Part shown: positions 5,096-45,096 of the stretch, piece after piece
Numbering within the stretch: the stretch's first letter is position 1
Layout of the letters: every line of letters begins with the position of its first letter
Origin: Corallium rubrum
Lineage: Eukaryota > Cnidaria > Anthozoa > Scleralcyonacea > Coralliidae
Assembly (NCBI GenBank): GCA_964035015.1
Contig: OZ036010.1
Coordinates: forward strand, 8,580,173 to 8,644,172
Direction: 5' to 3'
DNA: 64,000 nucleotides
Program-made: the position numbers and the translations under genes
Notes under the pieces: model-generated
The model's input: the letters and a program-made list of their open reading frames with translations, nothing else
Told to the model about the DNA's origin: nothing
The model's database searches: none

Positions 5096-5747
5096 TCATT
5101 CCCGATTGGTCTCCGACTGATTTCCGAAGTTACGTAAAAGGCACTGGACTTATCTCTTTATAACTAATAGAAACCAACTTTCATTTAAACCCTTAACCCT
5201 ACTTATAGTCAACAGTTGTGGGACACGTATACGTACAGAGCATGCGTACAGTAAACTTTAACAAAATAGACGTTCTTTACAAGGAACTAAAGAGAAATTG
5301 ATAGAGACACTTTATATTTTTTTATCTGAAACCTTGTCTCGATGAGTATAGAGAGTTTTGAGCAGCCGAAGTGTCTGAATTGGCAGAGCTCGTATGGACT
5401 TAAATCAATAGCATATGATGAATATTATATTAGGTTTAGAGCCTAAACATTCAATCATCCTAGAATCATTGCTAGCTAAACCCTTCGTTTGTAAGTGAAG
5501 AAATCGTAAGAAGATAGAATGAGGAGTCAATTCTAAAAGCCATAAGAACGTTTTTAAGTGTCGATATATAAACGAAATATTATTTGGCTGCGGGACGGCT
5601 GAGTATCGACTTGAATTAATAGCAACATGAATATTATATTAATTAGAACTTAAACGGCCAAACAGCTCTTTACCCATTTACTTGGAGATATGTGCCGAAT
5701 TGTCGCTTATTTGGCTTTAGTTTATAAGTAAACGATGCCTTGAATGA

Positions 5748-5893
5748 AGAAATCGTTCGGCAAACTGTTCGAAAGACATTGAATCATTTTCTTCAGAGGG
5801 GTTTGCCAGAATATAAACCAAGAAACCGTTCGGCAAGCTGTTCGAAAGACATTGAATCATTTTCTTCAGAGGGGTTTGCCAGAATATAAACTG
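5748..5893 (+). repeat. 73-bp tandem duplication in arm A
   Basis: The block from CCGTTCGGCAAGCTG to GGGGTTTGCCAGAATATA occurs twice in tandem. It is mirrored at about 9525-9670 and duplicated likewise in both arms of element B (about 44215-44352 and 46720-46860). Confidence 0.8.
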
Positions 5894-6159
5894 TCAAGGG
5901 TTAAACGGCTGACTCGGCTATTTTATTAACGTCGTCAAGCATCTTGTTAATGTTGCTACGGCTGATATTTGCGTATTTATGCTCAGTGCACGTGCAGGAG
6001 ACAAAAGAGAAAACTCATTAAAGTTACTAATGACCAAAACATAACCGGATTTGCATATAAGTAGAATATTTAATTCATTTTAGGGGTGATCATGAGTTTT
6101 TTGGGAATAATAAGGGGCCTGAAGAGGTATTAATATATGGGCAAGTTTAGGCGAAAAAG

Positions 6160-6452
6160 TTAGTCTTAGGACTATAGTCTTAGTTTTAGGACTATATAGT
6201 CTTAGTCTTAGGACTATATAGTCTTAGTCTTAGCACTATATAGTCTTAGTATTAGGACTATAGTCTTAGTCTTAGGAATATATAGTCTTAGTCTTAGGAC
6301 TATATAGTCTTAGTTTTAGGACTATAGTCTTAGTCTTACGGACTATAGTCTTAGTCTTTGTCTAAGTCTTAGGACTATAGTCTTAGTCTTAGGACTATAG
6401 TCTTAGTCTTAGGACTATATACTCTTTGGACTATATAGTCTTAGTCTTATAA
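6160..6452 (+). repeat. CTTAGTCTTAGGACTATA minisatellite (left arm A)
   Basis: Short tandem units of TTAGTCTTAGGACTATAtag in variable spacing; CTATATAG cores are self-complementary. Mirror copy at about 8965-9260. Confidence 0.9.
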
Positions 6453-7160
6453 TCACCGCAGGGGTAATCCCCAATCACCCCTGGGGCAACCTCCAAACAC
6501 CCCCGGGACACCCCATGGGGTAGCCCCCAAATTCCCCCGGGGTAACCCTAAACACCCCCTGGGATACCCCCAATCACCACCGGGATACCCCAAACACCCC
6601 TGGGGTAACCGCCAAACACCCCGGGGTGCCCCCAATCACCCCTGGGGTAACCCCCAAACACCCCCGGGATACCCCAATCACCCCAGGGGTAACCCCCAAA
6701 CACCCCTGGGGTAACCCCCAAACACCCCCGGGATACCCCAATCACCCCAGGGGTAACCCCCAAACACCCCAGGGGTAACCTCCAAACACCCCCGGGTACC
6801 CCCAATCACCCATGGGGTAACCCCCAAACACCCCTGGGGTAACCCCCAAACACCCCCGGGATACCCCAATCACCCCAGGGGTAACCCCCAAACACCCCCG
6901 GGGTACCCCCAATCACCCCTGGGGTAACCCCCAAACACCCCCGGGTACCCCCAATCACCCCAGGGGTAACCCCAAACACCCCCGGGGTACCCCCAATCAC
7001 CCCTGGGGTAACCCCCAAACACCCCCGGGTACCCCCAATCACCCCAGGGGTAACCCCAAACACCCCCGGGATACCCCAACCACCCCGGGGGTAACCCCAA
7101 ACACCCCCTGGGGTACCCCATTCACCCCTGGCGTAACCCCAAACACCCCCGAGGATGCTC
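6453..7160 (+). repeat. GGGGTAACCCCCAAACACCCC minisatellite (left arm A)
   Basis: A tandem array of about 40-bp units: CAATCACCCC, then GGGGTAACCCCCAAACACC, then CCGGGATACCCC. It is rich in small palindromes (GGGGTACCCC, CCCGGG, CCCCTGGGG), and one strand has frequent runs of four to five G. Reading frames through it give only Gly/Pro/Val/Trp repeats and are not genes. Confidence 0.9.
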
Positions 7161-7200
7161 CAAACTCCCCCTATCAAGCAGTCATATAGTCATGTAGTCA

Positions 7201-7645
7201 TAATACTAACTAAGAGTATAGTCCTTATCTTCCCATTATCTTCCATTTATCTTTCTTGTCTTCCTTATCTTCCTCTTATCTTCCCATTATCTTCCTCCTC
7301 CTCCTCTTTCTCCTCCTCCTCCTCTTTCTCCTCTTGCTCCTCCTCTTCCCCCCTTCTTTCTTCTCCTCCTCCTCCTCCTCTTCCCCCTCTTTCTTCTCCT
7401 CCTCCTCTTGCTCCTCCTCCTCCTCTTGCTCCTCCTCCTCCTCATTCTCCTCCTCTTGCTCCTCCTCCTCCTCCTCCTCCTCCTCCTCATTCTCCTCCTC
7501 CTCTTCCCCCTCTTTCTTCTCCTCCTCCTCTTGCTCTTCCTCCTCCTCCTCTTGCTCCGCCTCCTCCTCCTCCTCCTCCTCATTCTCCTCCTCCTCTTCC
7601 TCTTCTTCTCCTCCTCCTCTTGCTCCTCCTCCTCCTCCTCACTTG
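7201..7645 (+). repeat. TCC-rich pyrimidine tract (left arm A)
   Basis: TTATCTTCC repeats grade into a long (TCC)n array broken by TTGCTCC, TTTCT and CATTCT. Predicted poly-Ser/Leu/Pro or poly-Arg peptides are low-complexity artefacts. Confidence 0.9.
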
Positions 7646-7775
7646 GACGTTACTTAGACGCCGCCTCTAAATGAATAACTCATGAGTAACTCGTGAGTTG
7701 CTCATTTACTCATGAGTAACTCATTTATTCATGAGTAACTCATGAGTTATTCATTTAGAGGCGGCGTCTAAGTAA
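7646..7775. repeat. central hairpin of palindrome A
   Basis: GACGCCGCCTCTAAATGAA and its complement flank a spacer of about 50 bp made of ATGAGTAACTC repeats. This is the symmetry axis (about 7708). Confidence 0.85.
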
Positions 7776-8225
7776 CGTCCAAGTGAGGAGGAGGAGGAGG
7801 AGCAAGAGGAGGAGGAGAAGAAAGAGGGGGAAGAGGAGGAGGAGAATGAGGAGGAGGAGGCGGAGCAAGAGGAGGAGGAGGAAGAGCAAGAGGAGGAGGA
7901 GAAGAAGGAGGGGGAAGAGGAGGAGGAGAATGAGGAGGAGGAGGAGGAGGAGGAGGAGGAGCAAGAGGAGGAGAATGAGGAGGAGGAGGAGCAAGAGGAG
8001 GAGGAGGAGCAAGAGGAGGAGGAGAAGAAAGAGGGGGAAGAGGAGGAGGAGGAGGAGAAGAAAGAAGGGGGAAGAGGAGGAGCAAGAGGAGAAAGAGGAG
8101 GAGGAGGAGAAAGAGGAGGAGGAGGAAGATAATGGGAAGATAAGAGGAAGATAAGGAAGACAAGAAAGATAAATGGAAGATAATGGGAAGATAAGGACTA
8201 TACTCTTAGTTAGTATTATGACTAC
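7776..8225 (+). repeat. GGA-rich purine tract (right arm A)
   Basis: Mirror of the TCC tract, with slightly different repeat numbers. Confidence 0.9.
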
Positions 8226-8248
8226 ATGACTATATGACTGCTTGATAG

Positions 8249-8962
8249 GGGGAGTTTGGAGCATCCTCGGGGGTGTTTGGGGTTACGCCAGGGGTGAATG
8301 GGGTACCCCAGGGGGTGTTTGGGGTTACCCCCGGGGTGGTTGGGGTATCCCGGGGGTGTTTGGGGTTACCCCTGGGGTGATTGGGGGTACCCGGGGGTGT
8401 TTGGGGGTTACCCCAGGGGTGATTGGGGGTACCCTGGGGGTGTTTGGGGTTACCCCTGGGGTGATTGGGGGTACCCGGGGGTGTTTGGGGGTTACCCCAG
8501 GGGTGATTGGGGGTACCCCGGGGGTGTTTGGGGGTTACCCCTGGGGTGATTGGGGTATCCTGGGGTGTTTGGGGGTTACCCCAGGGGTGTTTGGGGGTTA
8601 CCCCATGGGTGATTGGGGGTACCCGGGGGTGTTTGGAGGTTACCCCTGGGGTGTTTGGGGGTTACCCCTGGGGTGATTGGGGTATCCCGGGGGTGTTTGG
8701 GGGTTACCCCAGGGGTGTTTGGGGGTTACCCCTGGGGTGATTGGGGTATCCCGGGGTGTTTGGGGGTTACCCCAGGGGTGATTGGGGGCACCCCGGGGTG
8801 TTTGGAGGTTACCCCAGGGGTGTTTGGGGTATCCCAGTGGTGATTGGGGGTATCCCAGGGGGTGTTTAGGGTTACCCCGGGGGAATTTGGGGGCTACCCC
8901 ATGGGGTGTCCCGGGGGTGTTTGGAGGTTGCCCCAGGGGTGATTGGGGATTACCCCTGCGGT
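8249..8962 (+). repeat. G-rich minisatellite (right arm A)
   Basis: Mirror of 6453-7160: GGGGTGATTGGGGGTACC and GGGGGTGTTTGGGG units. The plus strand here has dense G-runs compatible with G-quadruplexes. Confidence 0.9.
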
Positions 8963-8964
8963 GA

Positions 8965-9260
8965 TTATAAGACTAAGACTATATAGTCCAAAGAGTATAT
9001 AGTCCTAAGACTAAGACTATAGTCCTAAGACTAAGACTATAGTCCTAAGACTTAGACAAAGACTAAGACTATAGTCCGTAAGACTAAGACTATAGTCCTA
9101 AAACTAAGACTATATAGTCCTAAGACTAAGACTATATATTCCTAAGACTAAGACTATAGTCCTAATACTAAGACTATATAGTGCTAAGACTAAGACTATA
9201 TAGTCCTAAGACTAAGACTATATAGTCCTAAAACTAAGACTATAGTCCTAAGACTAACTT
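8965..9260 (+). repeat. CTAAGACTAAGACTATA minisatellite (right arm A)
   Basis: Mirror of 6160-6452. Confidence 0.9.
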
Positions 9261-10324
9261 TTTCGCCTAAACTTGCCCATATATTAATACCTCTTCAGGC
9301 CCCTTATTATTCCCAAAAACTCATGATCACCCCTAAAATGAATTAAATATTCTACTTATATGCAAATCCGGTTATGTTTTGGTCATTAGTAACTTTAATG
9401 AGTTTTCTCTTTTGTCTCCTGCACGTGCACTGAGCATAAATACGCAAATATCAGCCGTAGCAACATTAACAAGATGCTTGACGACGTTAATAAAATAGCC
9501 GAGTCAGCCGTTTAACCCTTGACAGTTTATATTCTGGCAAACCCCTCTGAAGAAAATGATTCAATGTCTTTCGAACAGCTTGCCGAACGGTTTCTTGGTT
9601 TATATTCTGGCAAACCCCTCTGAAGAAAATGATTCAATGTCTTTCGAACAGTTTGCCGAACGATTTCTTCATTCAAGGCATCGTTTACTTATAAACTAAA
9701 GCCAAATAAGCGACAATTCGGCACATATCTCCAAGTAAATGGGTAAAGAGCTGTTTGGCCGTTTAAGTTCTAATTAATATAATATTCATGTTGCTATTAA
9801 TTCAAGTCGATACTCAGCCGTCCCGCAGCCAAATAATATTTCGTTTATATATCGACACTTAAAAACGTTCTTATGGCTTTTAGAATTGACTCCTCATTCT
9901 ATCTTCTTACGATTTCTTCACTTACAAACGAAGGGTTTAGCTAGCAATGATTCTAGGATGATTGAATGTTTAGGCTCTAAACCTAATATAATATTCATCA
10001 TATGCTATTGATTTAAGTCCATACGAGCTCTGCCAATTCAGACACTTCGGCTGCTCAAAACTCTCTATACTCATCGAGACAAGGTTTCAGATAAAAAAAT
10101 ATAAAGTGTCTCTATCAATTTCTCTTTAGTTCCTTGTAAAGAACGTCTATTTTGTTAAAGTTTACTGTACGCATGCTCTGTACGTATACGTGTCCCACAA
10201 CTGTTGACTATAAGTAGGGTTAAGGGTTTAAATGAAAGTTGGTTTCTATTAGTTATAAAGAGATAAGTCCAGTGCCTTTTACGTAACTTCGGAAATCAGT
10301 CGGAGACCAATCGGGAATGACGGG

Positions 10325-10640
10325 GGGGGGGGGGTTGAGCAACATCTAGGGTTAGGGGGGAAAGTTAGGGTTACTACGTCCCAACGGAGTCTGAGAAATA
10401 ATGACGTAATGAGATTAGGGTTAGACTATCCTAAAGGAGTCTGAGAATGAATAAGTAATAGGGTGAATATGACGTAGTGAATAACGGGGGGTTGAGTGAG
10501 ATTAGGGTTAGGGGGTCATATAGGAGCACGAGACATAATGACGTAATGAGATTAGGGTTAGAGGGTCGTATAGGAGCATGAGCCATAATGACGTAATGAG
10601 ATTAGGGTTTGAACGTCACAAAGGAGAATGAATAAATAAT
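10325..10640 (+). repeat. telomere-like TTAGGG interspersed block (right arm A)
   Basis: ATTAGGGTTAG units alternate with TCATATAGGAGC-type segments; the TTAGGG strand reads 5'->3' towards the right end of the element. Confidence 0.75.
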
Positions 10641-10700
10641 AAGTTGAATATTTAATGAGGCGGCATCCCTTTGTAGTCTCGATGGGGGGGTATTACTACT

Positions 10701-10706
10701 TGTATG
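10701..10706 (+). repeat. target-site duplication of palindrome A, right copy
   Basis: TGTATG, identical to 4711-4716. Confidence 0.75.
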
Positions 10707-18230: not shown

Positions 18231-18323
18231 CTCTTTCTTGTCCGAATTGGTCTTTAGTATTTTATTCCGGCTAACGCCAGACGATTTTATTCACCTCTGG
18301 GGAAGCCCCCGGACAGGAATGAG
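18231..18323. mobile_element. 93-bp TTAA-flanked MITE (piggyBac-like), copy 1
   Basis: CTCTTTCTTGTCCG at one end, CGGACAGGAATGAG at the other, TTAA on both flanks (18227-18230 and 18324-18327). The same 93-bp element occurs twice in the LINE at 50 kb, in the opposite orientation. TTAA duplication is the hallmark of piggyBac-type transposition. Confidence 0.8.
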
Positions 18324-18327
18324 TTAA

Positions 18328-18952
18328 GACCCGGTTCACACGAGTCCGGAGCGAGTTGAAAACGGCGCTAAAAAGTCACAAAACGCCGTTGCGTTCACAC
18401 GGCACCGGATCGAAATTGTGTGAAAACGGCTCACATGCAAGATGTGGACATTTTTCGCGGTTCCCCAAGAACCACTTTTGGCCCCGATATCTTTTAAAAT
18501 TGAGCACTGAATTAAGAAGATTGTGTTATCGATAACACGATAAAACTCATAATAACAGTGGAGTAGAAGTAGACATTAGTCACGTTGGGAACGGTTATTA
18601 TTTTACAAGAAAGATAATTTTTCCATGTACTCTATAAAAGATATGTATACATGTATATTTAGTCATTTAGATGTCTTTGATGGTCTTAGACGACTGTCCA
18701 TTTGCTTTCCTAATACAAACTTCATTTATTTTTGCGTGATCCATATATAATTACAGTATACATTATATTCTGGCCAGCAATTACGTGCTTTTTTACATTT
18801 TCATGAAATTTGCAAAATTTTACTGTTATGTGAAATTTTTTACTGTTACTGTTAAATTACTAAAAAATGTAATTTTTTAGTGCACTTCTATCCTCATATA
18901 ATTATAAACTCATAAATAGTGGCATGAGTCGCTAAAAGTTTCGGTAGGAAAC
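18328..18952. other. non-genic AT-rich stretch
   Basis: Includes a GTTCACACG repeat pair (18337, 18390) that may be the end of another MITE. No gene seen. Confidence 0.4.
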
Positions 18953-18968
18953 TATTCACGATATTAGT
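18953..18968 (+). repeat. 16-bp direct repeat flanking the tRNA array, left
   Basis: TATTCACGATATTAGT, identical to 29717-29732 at the far end of the array. Confidence 0.75.
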
Positions 18969-21900
18969 GTAGAATATATACATTTTAAGACCAAACCGGG
19001 AGCAGTTGCGAAAAATGCAACTACACAGGCCCTCCGGCAGGAATTGAACCCACGACCTTGCGATTCTAGTGCAATGCTCTGACCACTGAGCCACGGAGGC
19101 CGTTGCCGAGAGCTCGATCGCGAGTTCTGTATATATAATAAGGTGGTAATGCCAGGAGAGAATTGGGTATATTATAAATGATATTGGGCATTTCACTCGA
19201 TTACACAGCATGTTCTAAGGATTTAGGGTGAAGGAAAATTCGAGTGTAGAATATATACATTTTAAGACCAAACCGGGAGCAGTTGCGAAAAATGCAACTA
19301 CACAGGCCCTCCGGCAGGAATTGAACCCACGACCTTGCGATTCTAGTGCAATGCTCTGACCACTGAGCCACGGAGGCCGTTGCCGAGAGCTCGATCGCGA
19401 GTTCTGTATATATAATAAGGTGGTAATGCCAGGAGAGAATTGGGTATATTATAAATGATATTGGGCATTTCACTCGATTACACAGCATGTTCTAAGGATT
19501 TAGGGTGAAGGAAAATTCGAGTGTAGAATATATACATTTTAAGACCAAACCGGGAGCAGTTGCGAAAAATGCAACTACACAGGCCCTCCGGCAGGAATTG
19601 AACCCACGACCTTGCGATTCTAGTGCAATGCTCTGACCACTGAGCCACGGAGGCCGTTGCCGAGAGCTCGATCGCGAGTTCTGTATATATAATAAGGTGG
19701 TAATGCCAGGAGAGAATTGGGTATATTATAAATGATATTGGGCATTTCACTCGATTACACAGCATGTTCTAAGGATTTAGGGTGAAGGAAAATTCGAGTG
19801 TAGAATATATACATTTTAAGACCAAACCGGGAGCAGTTGCGAAAAATGCAACTACACAGGCCCTCCGGCAGGAATTGAACCCACGACCTTGCGATTCTAG
19901 TGCAATGCTCTGACCACTGAGCCACGGAGGCCGTTGCCGAGAGCTCGATCGCGAGTTCTGTATATATAATAAGGTGGTAATGCCAGGAGAGAATTGGGTA
20001 TATTATAAATGATATTGGGCATTTCACTCGATTACACAGCATGTTCTAAGGATTTAGGGTGAAGGAAAATTCGAGTGTAGAATATATACATTTTAAGACC
20101 AAACCGGGAGCAGTTGCGAAAAATGCAACTACACAGGCCCTCCGGCAGGAATTGAACCCACGACCTTGCGATTCTAGTGCAATGCTCTGACCACTGAGCC
20201 ACGGAGGCCGTTGCCGAGAGCTCGATCGCGAGTTCTGTATATATAATAAGGTGGTAATGCCAGGAGAGAATTGGGTATATTATAAATGATATTGGGCATT
20301 TCACTCGATTACACAGCATGTTCTAAGGATTTAGGGTGAAGGAAAATTCGAGTGTAGAATATATACATTTTAAGACCAAACCGGGAGCAGTTGCGAAAAA
20401 TGCAACTACACAGGCCCTCCGGCAGGAATTGAACCCACGACCTTGCGATTCTAGTGCAATGCTCTGACCACTGAGCCACGGAGGCCGTTGCCGAGAGCTC
20501 GATCGCGAGTTCTGTATATATAATAAGGTGGTAATGCCAGGAGAGAATTGGGTATATTATAAATGATATTGGGCATTTCACTCGATTACACAGCATGTTC
20601 TAAGGATTTAGGGTGAAGGAAAATTCGAGTGTAGAATATATACATTTTAAGACCAAACCGGGAGCAGTTGCGAAAAATGCAACTACACAGGCCCTCCGGC
20701 AGGAATTGAACCCACGACCTTGCGATTCTAGTGCAATGCTCTGACCACTGAGCCACGGAGGCCGTTGCCGAGAGCTCGATCGCGAGTTCTGTATATATAA
20801 TAAGGTGGTAATGCCAGGAGAGAATTGGGTATATTATAAATGATATTGGGCATTTCACTCGATTACACAGCATGTTCTAAGGATTTAGGGTGAAGGAAAA
20901 TTCGAGTGTAGAATATATACATTTTAAGACCAAACCGGGAGCAGTTGCGAAAAATGCAACTACACAGGCCCTCCGGCAGGAATTGAACCCACGACCTTGC
21001 GATTCTAGTGCAATGCTCTGACCACTGAGCCACGGAGGCCGTTGCCGAGAGCTCGATCGCGAGTTCTGTATATATAATAAGGTGGTAATGCCAGGAGAGA
21101 ATTGGGTATATTATAAATGATATTGGGCATTTCACTCGATTACACAGCATGTTCTAAGGATTTAGGGTGAAGGAAAATTCGAGTGTAGAATATATACATT
21201 TTAAGACCAAACCGGGAGCAGTTGCGAAAAATGCAACTACACAGGCCCTCCGGCAGGAATTGAACCCACGACCTTGCGATTCTAGTGCAATGCTCTGACC
21301 ACTGAGCCACGGAGGCCGTTGCCGAGAGCTTGATCGCGAGTTCTGTATATATAATAAGGTGGTAATGCCAGGAGAGAATTGGGTATATTATAAATGATAT
21401 TGGGCATTTCACTCGATTACACAGCATGTTCTAAGGATTTAGGGTGAAGGAAAATTCGAGTGTAGAATATATACATTTTAAGACCAAACCGGGAGCAGTT
21501 GCGAAAAATGCAACTACACAGGCCCTCCGGCAGGAATTGAACCCACGACCTTGCGATTCTAGTGCAATGCTCTGACCACTGAGCCACGGAGGCCGTTGCC
21601 GAGAGCTCGATCGCGAGTTCTGTATATATAATAAGGTGGTAATGCCAGGAGAGAATTGGGTATATTATAAATGATATTGGGCATTTCACTCGATTACACA
21701 GCATGTTCTAAGGATTTAGGGTGAAGGAAAATTCGAGTGTAGAATATATACATTTTAAGACCAAACCGGGAGCAGTTGCGAAAAATGCAACTACACAGGC
21801 CCTCCGGCAGGAATTGAACCCACGACCTTGCGATTCTAGTGCAATGCTCTGACCACTGAGCCACGGAGGCCGTTGCCGAGAGCTCGATCGCGAGTTCTGT

Positions 21901-24900
21901 ATATATAATAAGGTGGTAATGCCAGGAGAGAATTGGGTATATTATAAATGATATTGGGCATTTCACTCGATTACACAGCATGTTCTAAGGATTTAGGGTG
22001 AAGGAAAATTCGAGTGTAGAATATATACATTTTAAGACCAAACCGGGAGCAGTTGCGAAAAATGCAACTACACAGGCCCTCCGGCAGGAATTGAACCCAC
22101 GACCTTGCGATTCTAGTGCAATGCTCTGACCACTGAGCCACGGAGGCCGTTGCCGAGAGCTCGATCGCGAGTTCTGTATATATAATAAGGTGGTAATGCC
22201 AGGAGAGAATTGGGTATATTATAAATGATATTGGGCATTTCACTCGATTACACAGCATGTTCTAAGGATTTAGGGTGAAGGAAAATTCGAGTGTAGAATA
22301 TATACATTTTAAGACCAAACCGGGAGCAGTTGCGAAAAATGCAACTACACAGGCCCTCCGGCAGGAATTGAACCCACGACCTTGCGATTCTAGTGCAATG
22401 CTCTGACCACTGAGCCACGGAGGCCGTTGCCGAGAGCTTGATCGCGAGTTCTGTATATATAATAAGGTGGTAATGCCAGGAGAGAATTGGGTATATTATA
22501 AATGATATTGGGCATTTCACTCGATTACACAGCATGTTCTAAGGATTTAGGGTGAAGGAAAATTCGAGTGTAGAATATATACATTTTAAGACCAAACCGG
22601 AGCAGTTGCGAAAAATGCAACTACACAGGCCCTCCGGCAGGAATTGAACCCACGACCTTGCGATTCTAGTGCAATGCTCTGACCACTGAGCCACGGAGGC
22701 CGTTGCCGAGAGCTTGATCGCGAGTTCTGTATATATAATAAGGTGGTAATGCCAGGAGAGAATTGGGTATATTATAAATGATATTGGGCATTTCACTCGA
22801 TTACACAGCATGTTCTAAGGATTTAGGGTGAAGGAAAATTCGAGTGTAGAATATATACATTTTAAGACCAAACCGGGAGCAGTTGCGAAAAATGCAACTA
22901 CACAGGCCCTCCGGCAGGAATTGAACCCACGACCTTGCGATTCTAGTGCAATGCTCTGACCACTGAGCCACGGAGGCCGTTGCCGAGAGCTTGATCGCGA
23001 GTTCTGTATATATAATAAGGTGGTAATGCCAGGAGAGAATTGGGTATATTATAAATGATATTGGGCATTTCACTCGATTACACAGCATGTTCTAAGGATT
23101 TAGGGTGAAGGAAAATTCGAGTGTAGAATATATACATTTTAAGACCAAACCGGGAGCAGTTGCGAAAAATGCAACTACACAGGCCCTCCGGCAGGAATTG
23201 AACCCACGACCTTGCGATTCTAGTGCAATGCTCTGACCACTGAGCCACGGAGGCCGTTGCCGAGAGCTCGATCGCGAGTTCTGTATATATAATAAGGTGG
23301 TAATGCCAGGAGAGAATTGGGTATATTATAAATGATATTGGGCATTTCACTCGATTACACAGCATGTTCTAAGGATTTAGGTGAAGGAAAATTCGAGTGT
23401 AGAATATATACATTTTAAGACCAAACCGGGAGCAGTTGCGAAAAATGCAACTACACAGGCCCTCCGGCAGGAATTGAACCCACGACCTTGCGATTCTAGT
23501 GCAATGCTCTGACCACTGAGCCACGGAGGCCGTTGCCGAGAGCTCGATCGCGAGTTCTGTATATATAATAAGGTGGTAATGCCAGGAGAGAATTGGGTAT
23601 ATTATAAATGATATTGGGCATTTCACTCGATTACACAGCATGTTCTAAGGATTTAGGGTGAAGGAAAATTCGAGTGTAGAATATATACATTTTAAGACCA
23701 AACCGGGAGCAGTTGCGAAAAATGCAACTACACAGGCCCTCCGGCAGGAATTGAACCCACGACCTTGCGATTCTAGTGCAATGCTCTGACCACTGAGCCA
23801 CGGAGGCCGTTGCCGAGAGCTTGATCGCGAGTTCTGTATATATAATAAGGTGGTAATGCCAGGAGAGAATTGGGTATATTATAAATGATATTGGGCATTT
23901 CACTCGATTACACAGCATGTTCTAAGGATTTAGGGTGAAGGAAAATTCGAGTGTAGAATATATACATTTTAAGACCAAACCGGGAGCAGTTGCGAAAAAT
24001 GCAACTACACAGGCCCTCCGGCAGGAATTGAACCCACGACCTTGCGATTCTAGTGCAATGCTCTGACCACTGAGCCACGGAGGCCGTTGCCGAGAGCTTG
24101 ATCGCGAGTTCTGTATATATAATAAGGTGGTAATGCCAGGAGAGAATTGGGTATATTATAAATGATATTGGGCATTTCACTCGATTACACAGCATGTTCT
24201 AAGGATTTAGGGTGAAGGAAAATTCGAGTGTAGAATATATACATTTTAAGACCAAACCGGGAGCAGTTGCGAAAAATGCAACTACACAGGCCCTCCGGCA
24301 GGAATTGAACCCACGACCTTGCGATTCTAGTGCAATGCTCTGACCACTGAGCCACGGAGGCCGTTGCCGAGAGCTTGATCGCGAGTTCTGTATATATAAT
24401 AAGGTGGTAATGCCAGGAGAGAATTGGGTATATTATAAATGATATTGGGCATTTCACTCGATTACACAGCATGTTCTAAGGATTTAGGGTGAAGGAAAAT
24501 TCGAGTGTAGAATATATACATTTTAAGACCAAACCGGGAGCAGTTGCGAAAAATGCAACTACACAGGCCCTCCGGCAGGAATTGAACCCACGACCTTGCG
24601 ATTCTAGTGCAATGCTCTGACCACTGAGCCACGGAGGCTGTTGCCGAGAGCTCGATCGCGAGTTCTGTATATATAATAAGGTGGTAATGCCAGGAGAGAA
24701 TTGGGTATATTATAAATGATATTGGGCATTTCACTCGATTACACAGCATGTTCTAAGGATTTAGGGTGAAGGAAAATTCGAGTGTAGAATATATACATTT
24801 TAAGACCAAACCGGGAGCAGTTGTGAAAAATGCAACTACACAGGCCCTCCGGCAGGAATTGAACCCACGACCTTGCGATTCTAGTGCAATGCTCTGACCA

Positions 24901-25113
24901 CTGAGCCACGGAGGCCGTTGCCGAGAGCTCGATCGCGAGTTCTGTATATATAATAAGGTGGTAATGCCAGGAGAGAATTGGGTATATTATAAATGATATT
25001 GGGCATTTCACTCGATTACACAGCATGTTCTAAGGATTTAGGGTGAAGGAAAATTCGAGTGTAGAATATATACATTTTAAGACCAAACCGGGAGCAGTTG
25101 CGAAAAATGCAAC
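18969..25113 (-). repeat. 277-bp satellite array with tRNA-like genes, minus-oriented half
   Basis: Twenty-two head-to-tail units, nearly all 277 bp (two are 276 through single-G losses near 22595 and 23380), about 99% or more identical. Each carries one tRNA-like gene on the minus strand; left ends are at 19030, 19307, 19584, 19861, 20138, 20415, 20692, 20969, 21246, 21523, 21800, 22077, 22354, 22630, 22907, 23184, 23460, 23737, 24014, 24291, 24568 and 24845. The commonest variant is GAGCTCGATCG versus GAGCTTGATCG just upstream of the tRNA-like gene, shared by seven units. A frame of about 95 codons spans each unit only because no stop occurs; it is not a protein gene. Confidence 0.95.
19030..19100 (-). 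tRNA. tRNA-like gene (anticodon position AGA), representative of minus-strand copies
   Basis: The 71-nt cloverleaf has acceptor GCCTCCG/CGGAGGG, D-arm GCTC...GAGC, anticodon stem TTGCA/CGCAA (last pair A-C) with loop CTAGAAT, a 4-nt variable loop, and T-arm GTGGG-TTCAATT-CCTGC. The A box (TGGCTCAGTGG) and B box (GGTTCAATTCC) match pol III consensus. TATATATA lies about 30 nt upstream, and a TTTTT run in a GTTGC...GCAAC hairpin lies shortly downstream as a possible terminator. The loop gives anticodon AGA (Ser), but true tRNA-Ser has a long variable arm, which is absent, and G1 faces G72. A tRNA-derived repeat or pseudo-tRNA is more likely than a working decoder. Confidence 0.65.
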
Positions 25114-25161
25114 GCAAAAACGCAAGGTCGTGGGTTCAATTCCTGCCGGAGGGCCTGTGTA
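25114..25161. repeat. axis of the tRNA-array palindrome
   Basis: The minus-oriented array stops at GTTGCGAAAAATGCAAC and the plus-oriented one resumes inside a tRNA-like gene (GCAAGGTCGTGGG...), after a few foreign bases (GCAAAAA). The 48-nt spacer therefore holds a 5'-truncated tRNA-like gene with only the T-arm and acceptor 3' half. Confidence 0.85.
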
Positions 25162-28100
25162 GTTGCATTTTTCGCAACTGCTCCCGGTTTGGTCTTAAAA
25201 TGTATATATTCTACACTCGAATTTTCCTTCACCCTAAATCCTTAGAACATGCTGTGTAATCGAGTGAAATGCCCAATATCATTTATAATATACCCAATTC
25301 TCTCCTGGCATTACCACCTTATTATATATACAGAACTCGCGATCGAGCTCTCGGCAACGGCCTCCGTGGCTCAGTGGTCAGAGCATTGCACTAGAATCGC
25401 AAGGTCGTGGGTTCAATTCCTGCCGGAGGGCCTGTGTAGTTGCATTTTTCGCAACTGCTCCCGGTTTGGTCTTAAAATGTATATATTCTACACTCGAATT
25501 TTCCTTCACCCTAAATCCTTAGAACATGCTGTGTAATCGAGTGAAATGCCCAATATCATTTATAATATACCCAATTCTCTCCTGGCATTACCACCTTATT
25601 ATATATACAGAACTCGCGATCGAGCTCTCGGCAACGGCCTCCGTGGCTCAGTGGTCAGAGCATTGCACTAGAATCGCAAGGTCGTGGGTTCACTTCCTGC
25701 CGGAGGGCCTGTGTAGTTGCATTTTTCGCAACTGCTCCCGGTTTGGTCTTAAAATGTATATATTCTACACTCGAATTTTCCTTCACCCTAAATCCTTAGA
25801 ACATGCTGTGTAATCGAGTGAAATGCCCAATATCATTTATAATATACCCAATTCTCTCCTGGCATTACCACCTTATTATATATACAGAACTCGCGATCGA
25901 GCTCTCGGCAACGGCCTCCGTGGCTCAGTGGTCAGAGCATTGCACTAGAATCGCAAGGTCGTGGGTTCAATTCCTGCCGGAGGGCCTGTGTAGTTGCATT
26001 TTTCGCAACTGCTCCCGGTTTGGTCTTAAAATGTATATATTCTACACTCGAATTTTCCTTCACCCTAAATCCTTAGAACATGCTGTGTAATCGAGTGAAA
26101 TGCCCAATATCATTTATAATATACCCAATTCTCTCCTGGCATTACCACCTTATTATATATACAGAACTCGCGATCGAGCTCTCGGCAACGGCCTCCGTGG
26201 CTCAGTGGTCAGAGCATTGCACTAGAATCGCAAGGTCGTGGGTTCAATTCCTGCCGGAGGGCCTGTGTAGTTGCATTTTTCGCAACTGCTCCCGGTTTGG
26301 TCTTAAAATGTATATATTCTACACTCGAATTTTCCTTCACCCTAAATCCTTAGAACATGCTGTGTAATCGAGTGAAATGCCCAATATCATTTATAATATA
26401 CCCAATTCTCTCCTGGCATTACCACCTTATTATATATACAGAACTCGCGATCGAGCTCTCGGCAACGGCCTCCGTGGCTCAGTGGTCAGAGCATTGCACT
26501 AGAATCGCAAGGTCGTGGGTTCAATTCCTGCCGGAGGGCCTGTGTAGTTGCATTTTTCGCAACTGCTCCCGGTTTGGTCTTAAAATGTATATATTCTACA
26601 CTCGAATTTTCCTTCACCCTAAATCCTTAGAACATGCTGTGTAATCGAGTGAAATGCCCAATATCATTTATAATATACCCAATTCTCTCCTGGCATTACC
26701 ACCTTATTATATATACAGAACTCGCGATCGAGCTCTCGGCAACGGCCTCCGTGGCTCAGTGGTCAGAGCATTGCACTAGAATCGCAAGGTCGTGGGTTCA
26801 ATTCCTGCCGGAGGGCCTGTGTAGTTGCATTTTTCGCAACTGCTCCCGGTTTGGTCTTAAAATGTATATATTCTACACTCGAATTTTCCTTCACCCTAAA
26901 TCCTTAGAACATGCTGTGTAATCGAGTGAAATGCCCAATATCATTTATAATATACCCAATTCTCTCCTGGCATTACCACCTTATTATATATACAGAACTC
27001 GCGATCGAGCTCTCGGCAACGGCCTCCGTGGCTCAGTGGTCAGAGCATTGCACTAGAATCGCAAGGTCGTGGGTTCACCCTGCCGGAGGGCCTGTGTAGT
27101 TGCATTTTTCGCAACTGCTCCCGGTTTGGTCTTAAAATGTATATATTCTACACTCGAATTTTCCTTCACCCTAAATCCTTAGAACATGCTGTGTAATCGA
27201 GTGAAATGCCCAATATCATTTATAATATACCCAATTCTCTCCTGGCATTACCACCTTATTATATATACAGAACTCGCGATCGAGCTCTCGGCAACGGCCT
27301 CCGTGGCTCAGTGGTCAGAGCATTGCACTAGAATCGCAAGGTCGTGGGTTCAATTCCTGCCGGAGGGCCTGTGTAGTTGCATTTTTCGCAACTGCTCCCG
27401 GTTTGGTCTTAAAATGTATATATTCTACACTCGAATTTTCCTTCACCCTAAATCCTTAGAACATGCTGTGTAATCGAGTGAAATGCCCAATATCATTTAT
27501 AATATACCCAATTCTCTCCTGGCATTACCACCTTATTATATATACAGAACTCGCGATCGAGCTCTCGGCAACGGCCTCCGTGGCTCAGTGGTCAGAGCAT
27601 TGCACTAGAATCGCAAGGTCGTGGGTTCAATTCCTGCCGGAGGGCCTGTGTAGTTGCATTTTTCGCAACTGCTCCCGGTTTGGTCTTAAAATGTATATAT
27701 TCTACACTCGAATTTTCCTTCACCCTAAATCCTTAGAACATGCTGTGTAATCGAGTGAAATGCCCAATATCATTTATAATATACCCAATTCTCTCCTGGC
27801 ATTACCACCTTATTATATATACAGAACTCGCGATCGAGCTCTCGGCAACGGCCTCCGTGGCTCAGTGGTCAGAGCATTGCACTAGAATCGCAAGGTCGTG
27901 GGTTCAATTCCTGCCGGAGGGCCTGTGTAGTTGCATTTTTCGCAACTGCTCCCGGTTTGGTCTTAAAATGTATATATTCTACACTCGAATTTTCCTTCAC
28001 CCTAAATCCTTAGAACATGCTGTGTAATCGAGTGAAATGCCCAATATCATTTATAATATACCCAATTCTCTCCTGGCATTACCACCTTATTATATATACA

Positions 28101-29716
28101 GAACTCGCGATCGAGCTCTCGGCAACGGCCTCCGTGGCTCAGTGGTCAGAGCATTGCACTAGAATCGCAAGGTCGTGGGTTCAATTCCTGCCGGAGGGCC
28201 TGTGTAGTTGCATTTTTCGCAACTGCTCCCGGTTTGGTCTTAAAATGTATATATTCTACACTCGAATTTTCCTTCACCCTAAATCCTTAGAACATGCTGT
28301 GTAATCGAGTGAAATGCCCAATATCATTTATAATATACCCAATTCTCTCCTGGCATTACCACCTTATTATATATACAGAACTCGCGATCGAGCTCTCGGC
28401 AACGGCCTCCGTGGCTCAGTGGTCAGAGCATTGCACTAGAATCGCAAGGTCGTGGGTTCACCCTGCCGGAGGGCCTGTGTAGTTGCATTTTTCGCAACTG
28501 CTCCCGGTTTGGTCTTAAAATGTATATATTCTACACTCGAATTTTCCTTCACCCTAAATCCTTAGAACATGCTGTGTAATCGAGTGAAATGCCCAATATC
28601 ATTTATAATATACCCAATTCTCTCCTGGCATTACCACCTTATTATATATACAGAACTCGCGATCGAGCTCTCGGCAACGGCCTCCGTGGCTCAGTGGTCA
28701 GAGCATTGCACTAGAATCGCAAGGTCGTGGGTTCAATTCCTGCCGGAGGGCCTGTGTAGTTGCATTTTTCGCAACTGCTCCCGGTTTGGTCTTAAAATGT
28801 ATATATTCTACACTCGAATTTTCCTTCACCCTAAATCCTTAGAACATGCTGTGTAATCGAGTGAAATGCCCAATATCATTTATAATATACCCAATTCTCT
28901 CCTGGCATTACCACCTTATTATATATACAGAACTCGCGATCGAGCTCTCGGCAACGGCCTCCGTGGCTCAGTGGTCAGAGCATTGCACTAGAATCGCAAG
29001 GTCGTGGGTTCAATTCCTGCCGGAGGGCCTGTGTAGTTGCATTTTTCGCAACTGCTCCCGGTTTGGTCTTAAAATGTATATATTCTACACTCGAATTTTC
29101 CTTCACCCTAAATCCTTAGAACATGCTGTGTAATCGAGTGAAATGCCCAATATCATTTATAATATACCCAATTCTCTCCTGGCATTACCACCTTATTATA
29201 TATACAGAACTCGCGATCGAGCTCTCGGCAACGGCCTCCGTGGCTCAGTGGTCAGAGCATTGCACTAGAATCGCAAGGTCGTGGGTTCAATTCCTGCCGG
29301 AGGGCCTGTGTAGTTGCATTTTTCGCAACTGCTCCCGGTTTGGTCTTAAAATGTATATATTCTACACTCGAATTTTCCTTCACCCTAAATCCTTAGAACA
29401 TGCTGTGTAATCGAGTGAAATGCCCAATATCATTTATAATATACCCAATTCTCTCCTGGCATTACCACCTTATTATATATACAGAACTCGCGATCGAGCT
29501 CTCGGCAACGGCCTCCGTGGCTCAGTGGTCAGAGCATTGCACTAGAATCGCAAGGTCGTGGGTTCAATTCCTGCCGGAGGGCCTGTGTAGTTGCATTTTT
29601 CGCAACTGCTCCCGGTTTGGTCTTAAAATGTATATATTCTACACTCGAATTTTCCTTCACCCTAAATCCTTAGAACATGCTGTGTAATCGAGTGAAATGC
29701 CCAATATCATTTATAA
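25162..29716 (+). repeat. 277-bp satellite array with tRNA-like genes, plus-oriented half
   Basis: Sixteen complete tRNA-like genes on the plus strand start at 25360, 25637, 25914, 26191, 26468, 26745, 27022, 27297, 27574, 27851, 28128, 28405, 28680, 28957, 29234 and 29511. The copies at 27022 and 28405 share an identical 2-nt loss in the T-loop (GGTTCACCCTGCC), which destroys the B box; they are five units apart, so part of the array was duplicated as a block. The array ends at ATTTATAATAT, mid-unit, against the right flanking repeat. Confidence 0.95.
25360..25430 (+). tRNA. tRNA-like gene (anticodon position AGA), representative of plus-strand copies
   Basis: Same 71-nt sequence as the minus-strand copies, in a unit of identical layout. 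It is the first complete copy right of the axis. The copy at 25637 has one T-loop substitution (TTCACTTCC). Confidence 0.65.
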
Positions 29717-29732
29717 TATTCACGATATTAGT
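29717..29732 (+). repeat. 16-bp direct repeat flanking the tRNA array, right
   Basis: TATTCACGATATTAGT, identical to 18953-18968; consistent with a target-site duplication. Confidence 0.75.
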
Positions 29733-37932: not shown

Positions 37933-38068
37933 AATATGATAAATAGCTGTGGTGCGGTCGAGTGTCAGACTACAGTATACTAACTACAGGGTGTATAAAA
38001 AAAAGGCTACCCTTAGAAAATATAATATAATATATATAATAACCATATCCAAAGGTTCATACTCGAAG

Positions 38069-38610
38069 ATGTATTTTAACACCTTCTTTGCCGTATTAAT
38101 ATTACTACTCGTGGGCTCACTAATAGCACATACAGAATCCAAAAGAACTGCGAGTTCACCCAAATATCTGTTCAGTTCGGAGTCAAATATCCCATATGGC
38201 ATACCCGAAGGAGCTTTCGTTGTTTCTCAACATCAACAAGAACGTCCTGGCAGTTCAAACGAGGAAGAAAACGAAGGCCATTTGAGATTCAGACGTCGAA
38301 GTGAGCCGCGGCTCTCCACCCCTCCTCCACCTACTGTAATTCCTTCTCAAGAACTGCTCATTCGATGGACCGAAGACGAAGGATTCACTTCGACTGGCTC
38401 GATTGTAGCTTCGTGTCGAAAATCGGAAAACGGGGTCGACAGACCTCCTTTGATATTCGTCTCCTGCGATTGCGGTTCGAGTTGGAGTAACGTTACGGAC
38501 GAATTTGTTACGGAAAAGGGCAATACTTTTTGGTTGAAGGCCTACTACAACGTGCCAAAGAAACTGAATTTTATATTGGCGATGAAGTCTACCGATTATT
38601 GTTATCAACG
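38069..38610 (+). CDS. sortilin-like secreted N-terminus (partial), fused to LINE
   Basis: ATG 38069 begins MYFNTFFAVLILLLVGSLIA, a good signal peptide, followed by an acidic propeptide-like stretch, a basic furin-type site (RFRRRSE) and LLIRWTEDEG...IFVSCDCGSSWSNVTDEF...LNFILAMKST. Signal peptide, furin-cleaved propeptide, then an aspartate/glycine-tryptophan repeat start is the order in VPS10/sortilin receptors. The similarity is weak and judged by eye. The frame runs straight into the LINE ORF with no stop. Either a LINE inserted in a host exon, or the element captured this N-terminus. Confidence 0.4.
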
Positions 38611-41600
38611 GCGAAGGCGAACTCGGCGGGGACTACATTCGTGTGCCTCTGTGTTTGTCAAGCATGGTTACCTTTGCATTGCTTTGGATTGGGAAAGAAA
38701 TTTTTTGCTTCAATGCGGAGACGTGTCATCAAATCCTGGACCTCAATCGAACTTTTCTAATACATATTATGGAGGAAGAAATGCTTCGTATAATTGTTTA
38801 AATTGCTTTCTACAAAATGCCCGAAGTCTAAAGGCGATTGTTCGTGTTGGAAATTCACGCGAAGCTAAATATTCCACATTGCAGGATATTGCCTACAGTT
38901 GTGATTTAGATATTATATGCATAACAGAAACATGGTTAAATGATTCAATTGAAAACTGTGAACTGCTTCCACGTGGTTATAATATATATCGTCAAGACAG
39001 AAAAGATCGAATTGGTGGTGGAGTATTGATTGCAGTGAAAAGTATTTTTGCTTCCAGGGAACTTCCTAAACCTGTTGAACTTGAAGCAGTCGTGGTTGAA
39101 TTAGATCTATCTCAAAATCGTAAGTTGTTGTTCGTAAATTGCTATCGGCCGCCAAATGATACGGGTTCATTTCTTACGACATTTTCATTATTGTTAAACT
39201 CCATACACTTGTATTCTTATTATGGAGTATTTATTACTGGTGATTTTAATTATCCAAAACTTGAATGGCTTGAGGGTTCAGGTTTTTCAAGCAGTAGCGA
39301 AAATGAGGAACACCAATTTGCCAATATCTTATTGGACAAATGTTTTCTCCGGATGGTTGATACTCCAACTCGGGGTGAAAATCTTTTGGATTTGGTCTGT
39401 GTAAATTCTCCCGAACTATTGACTTATATTGAGACTGGGATTGAAGTTTCAAACGTTGGTCTTACTTCAGATCATTACCCAATATTATTTAATATAAACA
39501 CTCTCCTCAAATTTGACAAGACTGTCAGAAGTAAATATAATTTTGGAAAAGCAGATTTTGCCTCATTAAATAAGACTCTATTTCTGCTGCCGTTAAGTAG
39601 TGGAATAGAAAACATTACAGACCAAAAGGAATTAGATGCACAGTGGGAAATATGGACTGATATGGTTCTTGGAGCTGTTCAAGTAAATATTCCTAAGATT
39701 AAAATTCTAAATTCAAACAAACCGCCTTGGATAAAGAATGATTTACTTCATGCTATTAAGCGAAAGAGAACATTATGGCGTAAATTTAGAAGAAGTAAAG
39801 ATCCCAAACTATTCGAAAAGTTCCGAAAGGAAAGGCAGAGAATAAAAAATTGGGTCCGAGCAGAAAGAAAATCATATCTTACTCAAATTGCAAATGAGAT
39901 AAATTCAAATCCTAAGAGATTTTGGTCGTTTTTCTCCTTCAAGAACAAAAGAAAATCAATTCCAGCTGCTGTTACCTATAAAAATGTCACTATAACGGAA
40001 AATAAATCCAAAGCTGAAGCTTTTAATCATTTTTTTCAATCTGTTTTTAAAGATCATTCTTGTTGTGAGGCTTCTGATGAACATTTCGATGAAATGACTA
40101 CTGATTGTCTTGAGATTATACAAACTTCAGTTGACGAGATTATTAATTTATTGACTTCACTTGATTGCAGTAAAGCGTCTGGACCAGATAATATTCCCAC
40201 GAGAGTCCTTAAAGAATGTGCAACTTCATTAGCACCATCAATTACAGCATTTATAAACTGTTCTTTACAAAACGGTTTATGTTTATCGGCGTGGAAAAAA
40301 GCTAACATCTCTCCCATTTATAAGAAAAACAAACGAGAGGAAGTTGTTAATTATCGTCAAATTTCCCTCTTACCAATTGTCTCAAAGATACAAGAAAAGT
40401 GTGTTGCCCTTCGTTTTATCCAACATATTTGTGCTTTTATTCGGAGATCTCAACATGGCTTTCGGAAAGGGTTATCTTGTGTTACCCAATTGTTACAAGT
40501 TTTACATGAAATTGGTGCAACACTTGATAAGGGAGTGGAAACTGATGTGATTTACTTGGATTTTGCGAAAGCTTTTGACTCGGTATGCCATCAGCGTTTA
40601 CTGATCAAGATTAAATCTTTTGGTATTCGCGGTGCGCTGTTAAAGTGGTTTGAAAATTATTTATCTGGGAGAAAACAAAGGGTTGTTATAAATGGAGAAA
40701 ATTCGCAGTGGGCTGATGTTATGTCAGGAGTACCCCAAGGCTCGATTCTTGGGCCGATATTGTTTATAGTGTATATAAACGACATGCCGGATGTTATAAA
40801 TCATTGTAAATTAGTGATGTTTGCTGACGATTCAAAGTGTTTTAAAGCCGTTGGCAAAATCAGCGACAGCGTTGCCCTACAGGACGATTTAAATGCCTTA
40901 ACCAGTTGGTCGAAAACAAACGAACTATCTTTCCAGCCATCTAAATGTAAAAATCTTCGTGTTAGTCGAAAAAAGCGTAAATTAAACTGTACCTATAATG
41001 TTGATGGTGTGAATATCGATTTGGTAAATTCGGAGAAAGATCTTGGAGTTATGGTTACAAGTGATCTTACGTGGAATGAACATATAAAGATGATATTGGC
41101 TAAAGCAAACAAAATGTTAGCTTTCCTAAAACGTAAATGTGCGAAGGATCTAAAACCAGATATACTTAAACTATTGTATATGTCACTGGTTAGATCAAAC
41201 CTATCTTATTGTTCTCAAGTTTGGGCTCCTCAATCATCTATCAATCAGCTGATTCTGGTGGAAAGCATACAGCGACGAGCTACCAAATATATGTGTAAAC
41301 GGTCGGAGCTTTCTTATAAAGAACGTTTAATTTATTTAAAGTTATTGCCTATAAATTATTGGTTAGAATTCTTAGATCTTGTTGTTTTTTTTAAATGTAA
41401 ATTAGGCCTAATTTTGATGAATTTAGATGATTACTTATATTATTGTAATACTCGTACTCGTCGAGGTAAAACTGGTTTAGCTTTAAACGTTAAACACTGT
41501 AAAACATCACTCTATCGTGATTCATACTTTAATAGAATAGTCCATTTGTGGAATGCTATCCCCAGCACTATTCAAACTTGTGAGACAATTTCAAGTTTTA

Positions 41601-41728
41601 AAAAGCAACTTAAGGCTTTTTATGTTGAAAGACTAAATTCGTTATTTGATGGGGACAATATTCGTACTTATAAACTTGTGTGTCCTAAATGTCGTCGTAT
41701 AAATGTTATGTCTGTTTGTTCTTGTTAA
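38611..41728 (+). CDS. LINE ORF2, CR1/L2-like: AP endonuclease and reverse transcriptase
   Basis: Uninterrupted from the junction to TAA at 41726. A 2A-like motif (LLQCGDVSSNPGP, nt about 38703-38744) precedes the endonuclease: QNARSL, ICITETWL, FITGDFNYPKL, TSDHYPI. The reverse transcriptase follows: NISPIYKK...VVNYRQISLLPIVSK (usual YRPISL has Q for P), QHGFRKG, DVIYLDFAKAFDSV (motif A), SGVPQGSILGP (motif B), and LVMFADDSK (motif C, the FADD aspartates) near nt 40818. The C-terminal part ends CPKCRR...SVCSC. With key aspartates intact this copy could still be active or was so recently. ORF1 is not present upstream. Confidence 0.9.
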
Positions 41729-41892: not shown

Positions 41893-42535
41893 ACGATGTT
41901 GGTCCGATACTACAAAATGTTTTAGATGGTAACATCTGTAAAACAACTCACATGAGGGGAAGGGACCCCTTCTACGTTTCTACCATTGGTACCAATCGTA
42001 CCAATGGTAAATGATTGGCGCCAATGGTATCCGCAAAGGCCAAGTTTACGTATTTCATCCGGTAGTAATGGCCAACATATCGCTCCACATTTCTCAACAA
42101 AATCTTAAAATCAAACGCGAAGCCTCCATGCGCGCACAATACTAAAAAAGACAAAATCACACATGATAGCTTTTCGCACTCACACACAGTTGATCTTAAT
42201 GTTTGCCCAGTGAACTCACTGAATACGCCGCCGAAAAGGTCTCTTTTTGACCACTAAATAGCTGTATTTCAACAAAGATAAACTCAAGGCTTTTAAAGTT
42301 TTTAAACTTTGAATGATACTCGAAATACTGAACTTGGACTTATCGGCCCACTTCATCTAGAGCGCATGATTGCCATCAACGCTATTCCGTTACTTCGTTA
42401 TGCGCGTGTTTGCCATCGAGGCTATTCCGCAACAGCCATACCTGGGCGAACTTTCTCCAGTATACCATGTTTCTTATTCTTCTCATGCACCTTCTTTCTC
42501 AGGTTTTTAACCCACTTCGCAAAACAAAATACAAA
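41893..42535 (+). repeat. duplicated genomic segment, copy 1
   Basis: Begins ACGATGTTGGTCCGATACTA and matches 54309-54962 in three collinear blocks, then 58508-58690. In the second copy a 3.5-kb insertion separates the last two blocks. The upstream limit coincides with the LINE tail. Confidence 0.85.
42030..42141 (-). pseudogene. duplicated exonuclease exon, truncated
   Basis: Same as the exon at 54616-54749 from its acceptor to LAFADT, then diverges before the donor, so the copy lacks the VLCKQ end and a splice site. A partner exon (42442-42514) is also present, matching 58614-58686. Confidence 0.7.
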
Positions 42536-43151: not shown

Positions 43152-45096
43152 AGTAGTAATAGACCCCACTCTGGCGGATTCATAATTAATTAGGTAAACT
43201 GAATTTTTAATGAGGATTGAAATTACGTCATTATTTCTCAGGCTCCTATGGGACACTCTAACCCTGATCTCATTATGCATACGTCATTATTTCTCAGGCT
43301 CCTTTGCGACCCTCTAACCCAAATCTCGTTACGTCATTATGTCTCGTGCTCCTATATGACCCCCTAACCCTAATCTCACTCAACCCCCCGTTATTCACTA
43401 CGTCATATTCACCTTATTATTTATTCATTCTCAGACTCCTTTAGGATAGTCTAACCCTAACCCCCTTACCCTGACTTGTTGCTGAACCCCCGGTTTTTAT
43501 TACGTCATAACTGACTCGCGCTCTTCCGAAACCCCCTAGCCCTAGATGTTACTTAACCCCCCGTCATTCCCGATTGGTCTCCGACTGATTTCCGAAGTTA
43601 CGTAAAAGGCACTGGACTTATCTCTTTATAACTAATAGAAACCAACTTTCATTTAAACCCTTAACCCTACTTTCATTTAAACCCTGTAACCCTACTTATA
43701 GTCAACAGTTGTGTAAACTTTAACAAAATAGACGTTCTTTACAAGGAACTAAAGAGAAATTGATAGAGGCACTTTATATTTTTTTATCTGAAACCTTGTC
43801 TCGATGAGTATAGAGAGGTTTGAGCAGCCGAAGTGTCTGAATTGGCAGAGCTCGTATGGACTTAAATCAATAGCATATGATGAATATTATATTAGGTTTA
43901 AAGCCTAAACATTCAATCATCCTAGAATCATTGCTAGCTAAACCCTTCGTTTGTAAGTGAAGAAATCGTAAGAAGATAGAATGAGGAGTCAATTCTAAAA
44001 GCCATAAGAACGTTTTTAAGTGTCGATATATAAACGAAATATTTTTTGGCTGCGGGACGGCTGAGTATCGACTTGAATTAATAGCAACATGAATATTATA
44101 TTAGTTAGAACTTAAACGGCCAAACAGCTCTTTACCCATTTACTTGGAGATATGTGCCGAATTGTCGCTTATTTGGCTTTAGTTTATAAGTAAACGATGC
44201 CTTGAATGAAGAAATCGTTCGGCAAGCTGTTCGAAAGACATTGAATCATTTTCTTCAGAGGGGTTTGCCAGAATATAAACCGAGAAACCGTTCGGCAAGC
44301 TGTTCGAAAGACATTGAATCATTTTCTTCAGAGGGGTTTGCCAGAATATAAACTGTCAAGGGTTAAACGGCTGACTCGGCTATTTTATTAACGTCGTCAA
44401 GCATCTTGTTAATGTTGCTACGGCTGATATTTGCGTATTTATGCTCAGTGCACGTGCAGGAGACAAAAGAGAAAACTCATTAAAGTTACTAATGACCAAA
44501 ACATAACCGGATTTGCATATAAGTAGAATATTTAATTCATTTTAGGGGTGATCATGAGTTTTTTTGGGAATAATAAGGAGCCTGAAGAGGTATTAATATA
44601 TGGGCAAGTTTAGGCGAAAAAGTTAGTCTTAGGACTATAGTCTTAGTTTTAGGACTATATAGTCTTAGTCTTAGGACTATATAGTCTTAGTCTTAGCACT
44701 ATATAGTCTTAGTATTAGGACTATAGTCTTAGTCTTAGGACTATAGTCTTAGTCTTAGGAATATATAGTCTTAGTCTTAGGACTATATAGTCTTAGTTTT
44801 AGGACTATAGTCTTAGTCTTACGGACTATAGTCTTAGTCTTTGTCTTAGTCTTAGGACTATAGTCTTAGTCTTAGGACTATAGTCTTAGGACTATATACT
44901 CTTTGGACTATATAGTCTTAGTCTTATAATCACCCCAGGGGTAACCCCCAAACACCCCCGGGGTACCCCAATCACCCCTGGGGTAACCTCCAAACACCCC
45001 CGGGACACCCCATGGGGTAGCCCCCAAATTCCCCCGGGGTAACCCCAAACACCCTAGGGGTACCCTAAACACCCCAGGGGGTAATCCCAAACACCC

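Follow-up and report, generated by a model that had tools for sequence, protein, structure and literature searches.

We identified a head-to-head inverted array of 38 near-identical tRNA-like genes whose two outer edges carry a perfect 16-bp direct repeat, and we read this repeat as a target-site duplication enclosing both arms. The window analyzed, a stretch of 64,000 nucleotides from Corallium rubrum, contains 38 tRNA-type genes as predicted by ARAGORN, all of them within 19028-29583 and arranged as 22 genes on the minus strand followed by 16 on the plus strand. The gathering score of the Rfam tRNA model (RF00005) was likewise reached 38 times, 35 times at 48.2 bits and otherwise at 43.9, 38.2, and 38.2 bits, and Tandem Repeats Finder resolved a 277-bp period with 99% matches on either side of the axis (Table 1). 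Over 23380-25113 and 25162-26895 the two arms are perfectly complementary, with 48 nt between them, while a short-word BLAST search found no further copy of the 277-bp unit in the rest of the window. Chance cannot be the source of such an array. These results agree with an earlier note, made from the letters of the sequence, that had described near-identical 277-bp units, 22 minus and 16 plus, meeting head to head at a 48-nt axis. That note had also called the pol III units convergent, which is wrong; with minus units on the left and plus units on the right (<- ->), the units point outward, and transcription would proceed from the axis toward either edge.

Table 1. Features of the inverted array, with positions counted from the first nucleotide of the window
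Feature	Position	Strand	Description
Left copy of 16-bp repeat	18953..18968	+	last 3 nt (AGT) also unit sequence
Left arm	18966..25113	-	22.2 units of 277 bp; 22 tRNA-like genes at 19028-24915
Axis	25114..25161	.	48 nt; 25114-25120 in register with neither arm, right arm from 25121
Right arm	25121..29719	+	16.6 units of 277 bp; 16 tRNA-like genes at 25360-29583
Example unit P01	25360..25432	+	73-nt tRNA-like gene, anticodon AGA, A and B boxes, T5 hairpin downstream
Right copy of 16-bp repeat	29717..29732	+	first 3 nt (TAT) also unit sequence

The edge repeat, TATTCACGATATTAGT, is found nowhere else in the window, and the 277-bp unit contains neither the repeat nor its 10-nt core, TCACGATATT. 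Its exact outer ends are the limits that the earlier note had given for the array, 18953-29732, and the repeat itself had been omitted there. At each edge 3 nt are shared between repeat and unit, so the duplication that we read from the sequence would be 10-16 bp long. When pairs of 32-nt stretches were drawn at random from the remainder of the window, 28 of 20,000 had at least 16 nt in common; this null includes transposon repeats that the window carries and sets no condition of lying at the array edges, and is thus generous to chance, but it is not zero and counts against the origin that we favor below. The left and right flanks are otherwise different from each other, and the sole second match of either flank in the window is a 30-nt piece of the right flank at 90%. 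If both flanks belong to a single target site, unit orientation has to change at some point between them. The array, or an inverted seed that later grew, thus probably entered the chromosome as one insertion, and the inversion itself is probably real.

The inversion had earlier been flagged as a possible assembly join. The 16-bp repeat weakens that doubt for the inversion, and the doubt stands for the copy number and the exact position of the axis. An assembly artefact, in which the inversion is a false join or a fold-back read, seems to us quite improbable: long near-identical arrays are hard to assemble, and single-base deletions in C runs are present in units M06 and M09, yet the flanks differ while having the 16-bp repeat in common exactly at the array edges. 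The fold-back read was rejected, as it would repeat one flank. Rejected as well was a simple inversion within one array, which would leave two changes of orientation where only one is present. The assembled copy number of the array could still be wrong.

The signals expected of a pol III gene were said by the earlier note to be present in every unit, and this holds for the A box, the TATA-like element, and the T5 run, each of which occurs in 38 of 38 units. The B box is canonical in 35 (altered in units P02, P07, and P12), and the hairpin, whose loop contains the T5 run, has an intact GTTGC/GCAAC core in 37. The TATA-like element lies ~35 nt upstream of the tRNA-like gene, a distance taken from unit P16, and the GC content of the unit is 44.8%. 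The anticodon, AGA, would read serine. Nuclear tRNA-Ser has a long variable arm and a paired acceptor stem, whereas the Rfam alignment shows a variable loop of just 4-5 nt in this gene, with a non-standard pair at the first acceptor position and another in the anticodon stem. On the short loop and mismatched acceptor pair, a functional tRNA-Ser cluster was rejected; the gene is best termed tRNA-like, and as tRNA-Ser it is not credible. Folding of the RNA from 25359-25453 (95 nt) was no better than that of shuffled sequence, with 164 of 200 shuffles at least as stable (z 0.98). No convincing primer-binding site or polypurine tract was seen in the unit on reading by eye, and 1 kb taken from the right flank, when scanned for bacterial promoters and terminators, gave nothing above shuffles.

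To judge from translated sequence, the unit is apparently one member of a dispersed family of cassettes whose flanks are both conserved and whose core differs. A chance open frame of 96 codons (25246-25536) crosses the unit and, as a query, retrieved three proteins at E up to 0.001 among four candidates; these relatives sit on contigs of 37.8, 8.7, and 18.8 kb. Their similarity to the unit falls in two parts, IYTELA..LSATASVAQ on the TATA side, with the frame changing farther upstream, and SCIFRN.SR..LKMYIF on the terminator side; the stretch between these diverges and implies a different tRNA-like core. Beyond the terminator side the relatives leave the unit, and no second copy begins within the frame. 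Pattern scans for the unit in prokaryote and viral contig collections gave 0 stretches, and of 70 stretches of viral contigs that matched the protein alignment none was confirmed, which is unsurprising because the sequence is animal. Frames like the 96-codon one are annotated as proteins in other assemblies, which calls for care in annotation and offers a way to look for relatives.

We tentatively favor an origin in which head-to-head array DNA was captured at a staggered break, with each arm then growing further. A dispersed tRNA-like cassette, consisting of the TATA-like element, the A and B boxes, and the T5 hairpin, would first have turned into a tandem array. Two stretches of array DNA, putatively derived from extrachromosomal circular or linear forms, would then have been end-joined head to head and inserted at the break, whose filled-in ends would be the 10-16 bp direct repeat, and block duplications would afterwards have extended each arm separately. 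The copies may give a pol III tRNA-like RNA of roughly 90-100 nt, unlikely to act as tRNA-Ser. Against this origin, neither a source array nor a circle was seen in the sequence covered, the window.

The junctions bear on this scenario. Counted within the unit, the left arm ends at position 136 on its outer side and at 81 at the axis, and the right arm at 40 at the axis and at 210 on its outer side, so that no fixed element boundary is visible, as expected of random fragment ends. At the axis, the 7 nt GCAAAAA that are out of register with both arms adjoin a similar GCGAAAAATGCAAC of the left arm and may, on one reading, be locally copied filler; together with the 3-nt overlaps at the edges they would fit end joining. 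The edge overlaps, the length of the repeat, and the inversion would also fit twin-primed reverse transcription. The 156 nt around the axis form a near-perfect hairpin as single-stranded DNA (z -17.8), as expected of any palindrome.

Variation among the copies is sparse and specific to each arm. The consensus is matched exactly by 24 of the 36 full-length units, and no variant is common to both arms. On the left, G264A occurs in 7 of 21 full units (M02-M04, M07-M09, M13) and in none of the 15 on the right; single changes there are G93A (M01), deletion of C151 (M06), deletion of C102 (M09), and, in M02, a G-to-A change immediately before the gene. On the right, the B box carries A58C in P02, and in P07 and P12 it appears to carry A58C together with a deletion of TT. 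These three units lie five apart and their changes are nested, pointing to the copying of five units as a block. The statistical case for block growth from spacing is weak: the three right-arm variants would be equally spaced by chance with a probability of 0.10, and the spacing of left-arm variants gives P 0.02 at lag 5 and 0.11 over lags 3-10. Arm-specific variants and overall identity fit a homogeneous start followed by separate growth of the arms. The arm-specific variants can also be accommodated by growth in place, in which a short inverted seed (two partial units, for example) was inserted with the duplication and the arms were lengthened by unequal exchange or slippage. We consider this rather unlikely: it accounts for the arm-specific variants and for the nesting of the P02 change and the TT loss in units five apart, but the statistics of spacing lend it little, and with two thirds of the full-length units identical the growth would need to be very recent.

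Another route to an inverted array, likewise rather unlikely but the leading rival to capture at a break, is retrozyme-like. A LINE or Penelope-type enzyme would copy circular or tandem unit RNA into tandem cDNA at the target, and twin priming from both target strands would give the opposite arms and the target-site duplication. By analogy, the 277-bp unit, its GC content, and a duplication of 10-16 bp resemble features of metazoan retrozymes as given in the available part of that report (PMC7229834). In human L1 insertions the target-site duplications are of similar length, with a median of 13 bp and quartiles of 10-15, and 5' inversions arise through twin priming, according to the available part of the L1 study (PMC12016303); the window, moreover, holds two LINE reading frames. 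Against this, the exact hammerhead core (CTGANGA) is absent from both strands of the unit, none of the Rfam ribozymes matched about two units of sequence at E up to 10, and the T5 stop within the unit should block a unit-length pol III RNA. Of the features of a twin-primed LINE-type insertion, the duplication and internal inversion are present and the tail is absent, with none at either array edge, and neither a cut motif nor duplications of the window's LINEs were found in the stretches compared. A ribozyme-free counterpart, in which a tRNA-like pol III cassette spreads by rolling-circle, twin-primed reverse transcription at the target, we regard as improbable; if it were true, single integrations would create ready-made palindromic arrays of dozens of pol III genes.

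Several other elements lie in the window. A LINE-type frame (37943-41728) encodes endonuclease and reverse transcriptase domains and has a 2A-like motif, GDVSSNPGP, near its start; such motifs occur in LINE-type elements. Among the 120 matches listed for the LINE frame are proteins of the octocoral Paramuricea clavata (41% identity, with 63% of the query covered) and of the stork Mycteria americana (32%, with 72% covered), and the top matches reach 54%. A second LINE (48294-53387) has a broken frame, with a GDSL-lipase-type first frame, a reverse transcriptase, and a (TAA)11 tail at 53355-53387. No target-site duplication of either LINE was found in the stretches compared. Within the span of the second, a 112-bp perfect tandem duplication at 50360-50573 holds a short repeat that is also present at 18231-18328, 97.9% alike on the opposite strand and about 0.6 kb left of the array. 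A 289-residue frame (55759-56625) is related to uncharacterized Paramuricea clavata proteins, which account for at least 3 of its 19 matches (best 53% over 81%; top match overall 96% over 57%). This frame lies inside a palindromic element at 55138-58487, the outer parts of which recur at 42023-42518.

The window also contains further inverted structures. A palindrome at 4711-10706 has arms about 99% alike and many internal tandem repeats; AGTAGTAATA forms the ends of the part at 4717-10700, and TGTATG stands as a 6-bp direct repeat at 4711 and 10701. It looks like a non-autonomous Polinton-like foldback element, ends and 6-bp repeat of this kind being a Polinton signature. A related palindrome at 43152-47852 is about 92-94% like it over long stretches and has AGTAGTAATA only at its left end. 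An inverted repeat at 59374-64000, about 2.2 kb and 99.1% alike, runs to the end of the window and holds (TTAAC)n at 60949-60995 and (GTTAA)n at 62368-62427. The tRNA-like array was considered as a Polinton-like foldback element of the same kind as the window's other palindromes and rejected as such, having neither AGTAGTAATA ends nor the TGTATG repeat.

It had been proposed that the array could act as a boundary, produce abundant small RNAs, or form a replication barrier. That it is selected for any of these functions appears very improbable. Pol III signals are retained in nearly all copies, and a human tRNA tandem repeat has been implicated as a boundary element, an analogy drawn from the available text of that study (PMC4041453); however, the units are near-identical throughout, such that intact signals reflect youth rather than selection, and the recurrent right-arm changes hit the B box. 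Both arms would give same-sense RNA, and pol III transcripts would therefore not pair into dsRNA, which by geometry could arise only through read-through across the axis. A replication fork arriving from either side would be expected to meet the first arm head-on.

Some cnidarian genomes carry large numbers of tRNA-type tandem arrays. The presence of opposite arms within one apparent target-site duplication suggests that an array or inverted seed can arrive by insertion, and not only by growth in place. If the same type of duplication flanks other arrays of this unit, the mechanism would be testable by comparing filled and empty sites.

A tRNA-derived SINE has a tRNA-like head at its 5' end, a tail at its 3' end, and one copy per duplication, whereas here conserved sequence also lies upstream of the tRNA-like part, and 38 copies stand within one duplication with no tail at the edges. 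Helenus, a TRIM with a tRNA-like LTR, is alike in having a tRNA-like promoter with conserved surroundings, and its anticodon often disagrees with its tRNA type; in the available text, its animal members make 4-bp duplications, compared with at least 10 bp here, and the six animal phyla given for it exclude Cnidaria (PMC10886601). An LTR-type TRIM was rejected on the length of the duplication, which is too long. Metazoan retrozymes, those of cnidarians included, are described in the accessible part of the report cited above as low-GC units of 150-450 bp in tandem, whose duplications, where they exist, are >4 bp (PMC7229834). The array resembles them in its short, low-GC tandem unit and a duplication >4 bp, and differs in that they carry a type I hammerhead, while here neither a hammerhead core nor an Rfam ribozyme was found and the unit instead has a tRNA-like pol III gene, in inverted arms.

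Tandem tRNA arrays are already known, and the target-site-flanked inverted form was not met in the literature searched (titles and the starts of abstracts, mostly of papers available without subscription), where the most specific query retrieved no paper at all. The comparisons that follow draw on the available parts of each paper. In Entamoeba, tRNA genes likewise lie in tandem arrays, but almost all of them do so, with up to 5 genes per unit rather than the one tRNA-like gene here (PMC2652664). The human repeat at 1q23.3 also consists of tandem tRNA genes, with 9-43 units per allele, and its unit is 7.3 kb, GC-rich, and CTCF-binding (PMC4041453), in contrast to an inverted 277-bp unit of 44.8% GC. 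Among cnidarians, tandem tRNA arrays have been published for Hydractinia (PMC11067881) and Nematostella (PMC2888827), and none turned up among the other cnidarian genomes that the Hydractinia study compared (PMC11067881). In Nematostella 89% of tRNA-type loci lie in clusters and most pairs combine different types, whereas a single type with a 277-bp unit is found here; the same eukaryote survey reports clusters with fifty or more members, defines head-to-head as <- ->, and finds that parallel pairs of tRNA genes prevail in some genomes (PMC2888827). The Corallium array, with 22 minus units and then 16 plus, is not all head to tail, an order that the text available on such cnidarian arrays does not give as defining. 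It shares with the Hydractinia and Nematostella arrays its evenly spaced, near-identical tRNA-type copies, 38 of them at a 277-bp period; the available text on those arrays mentions neither an inversion nor an edge duplication, while the copies described here are inverted between direct repeats.
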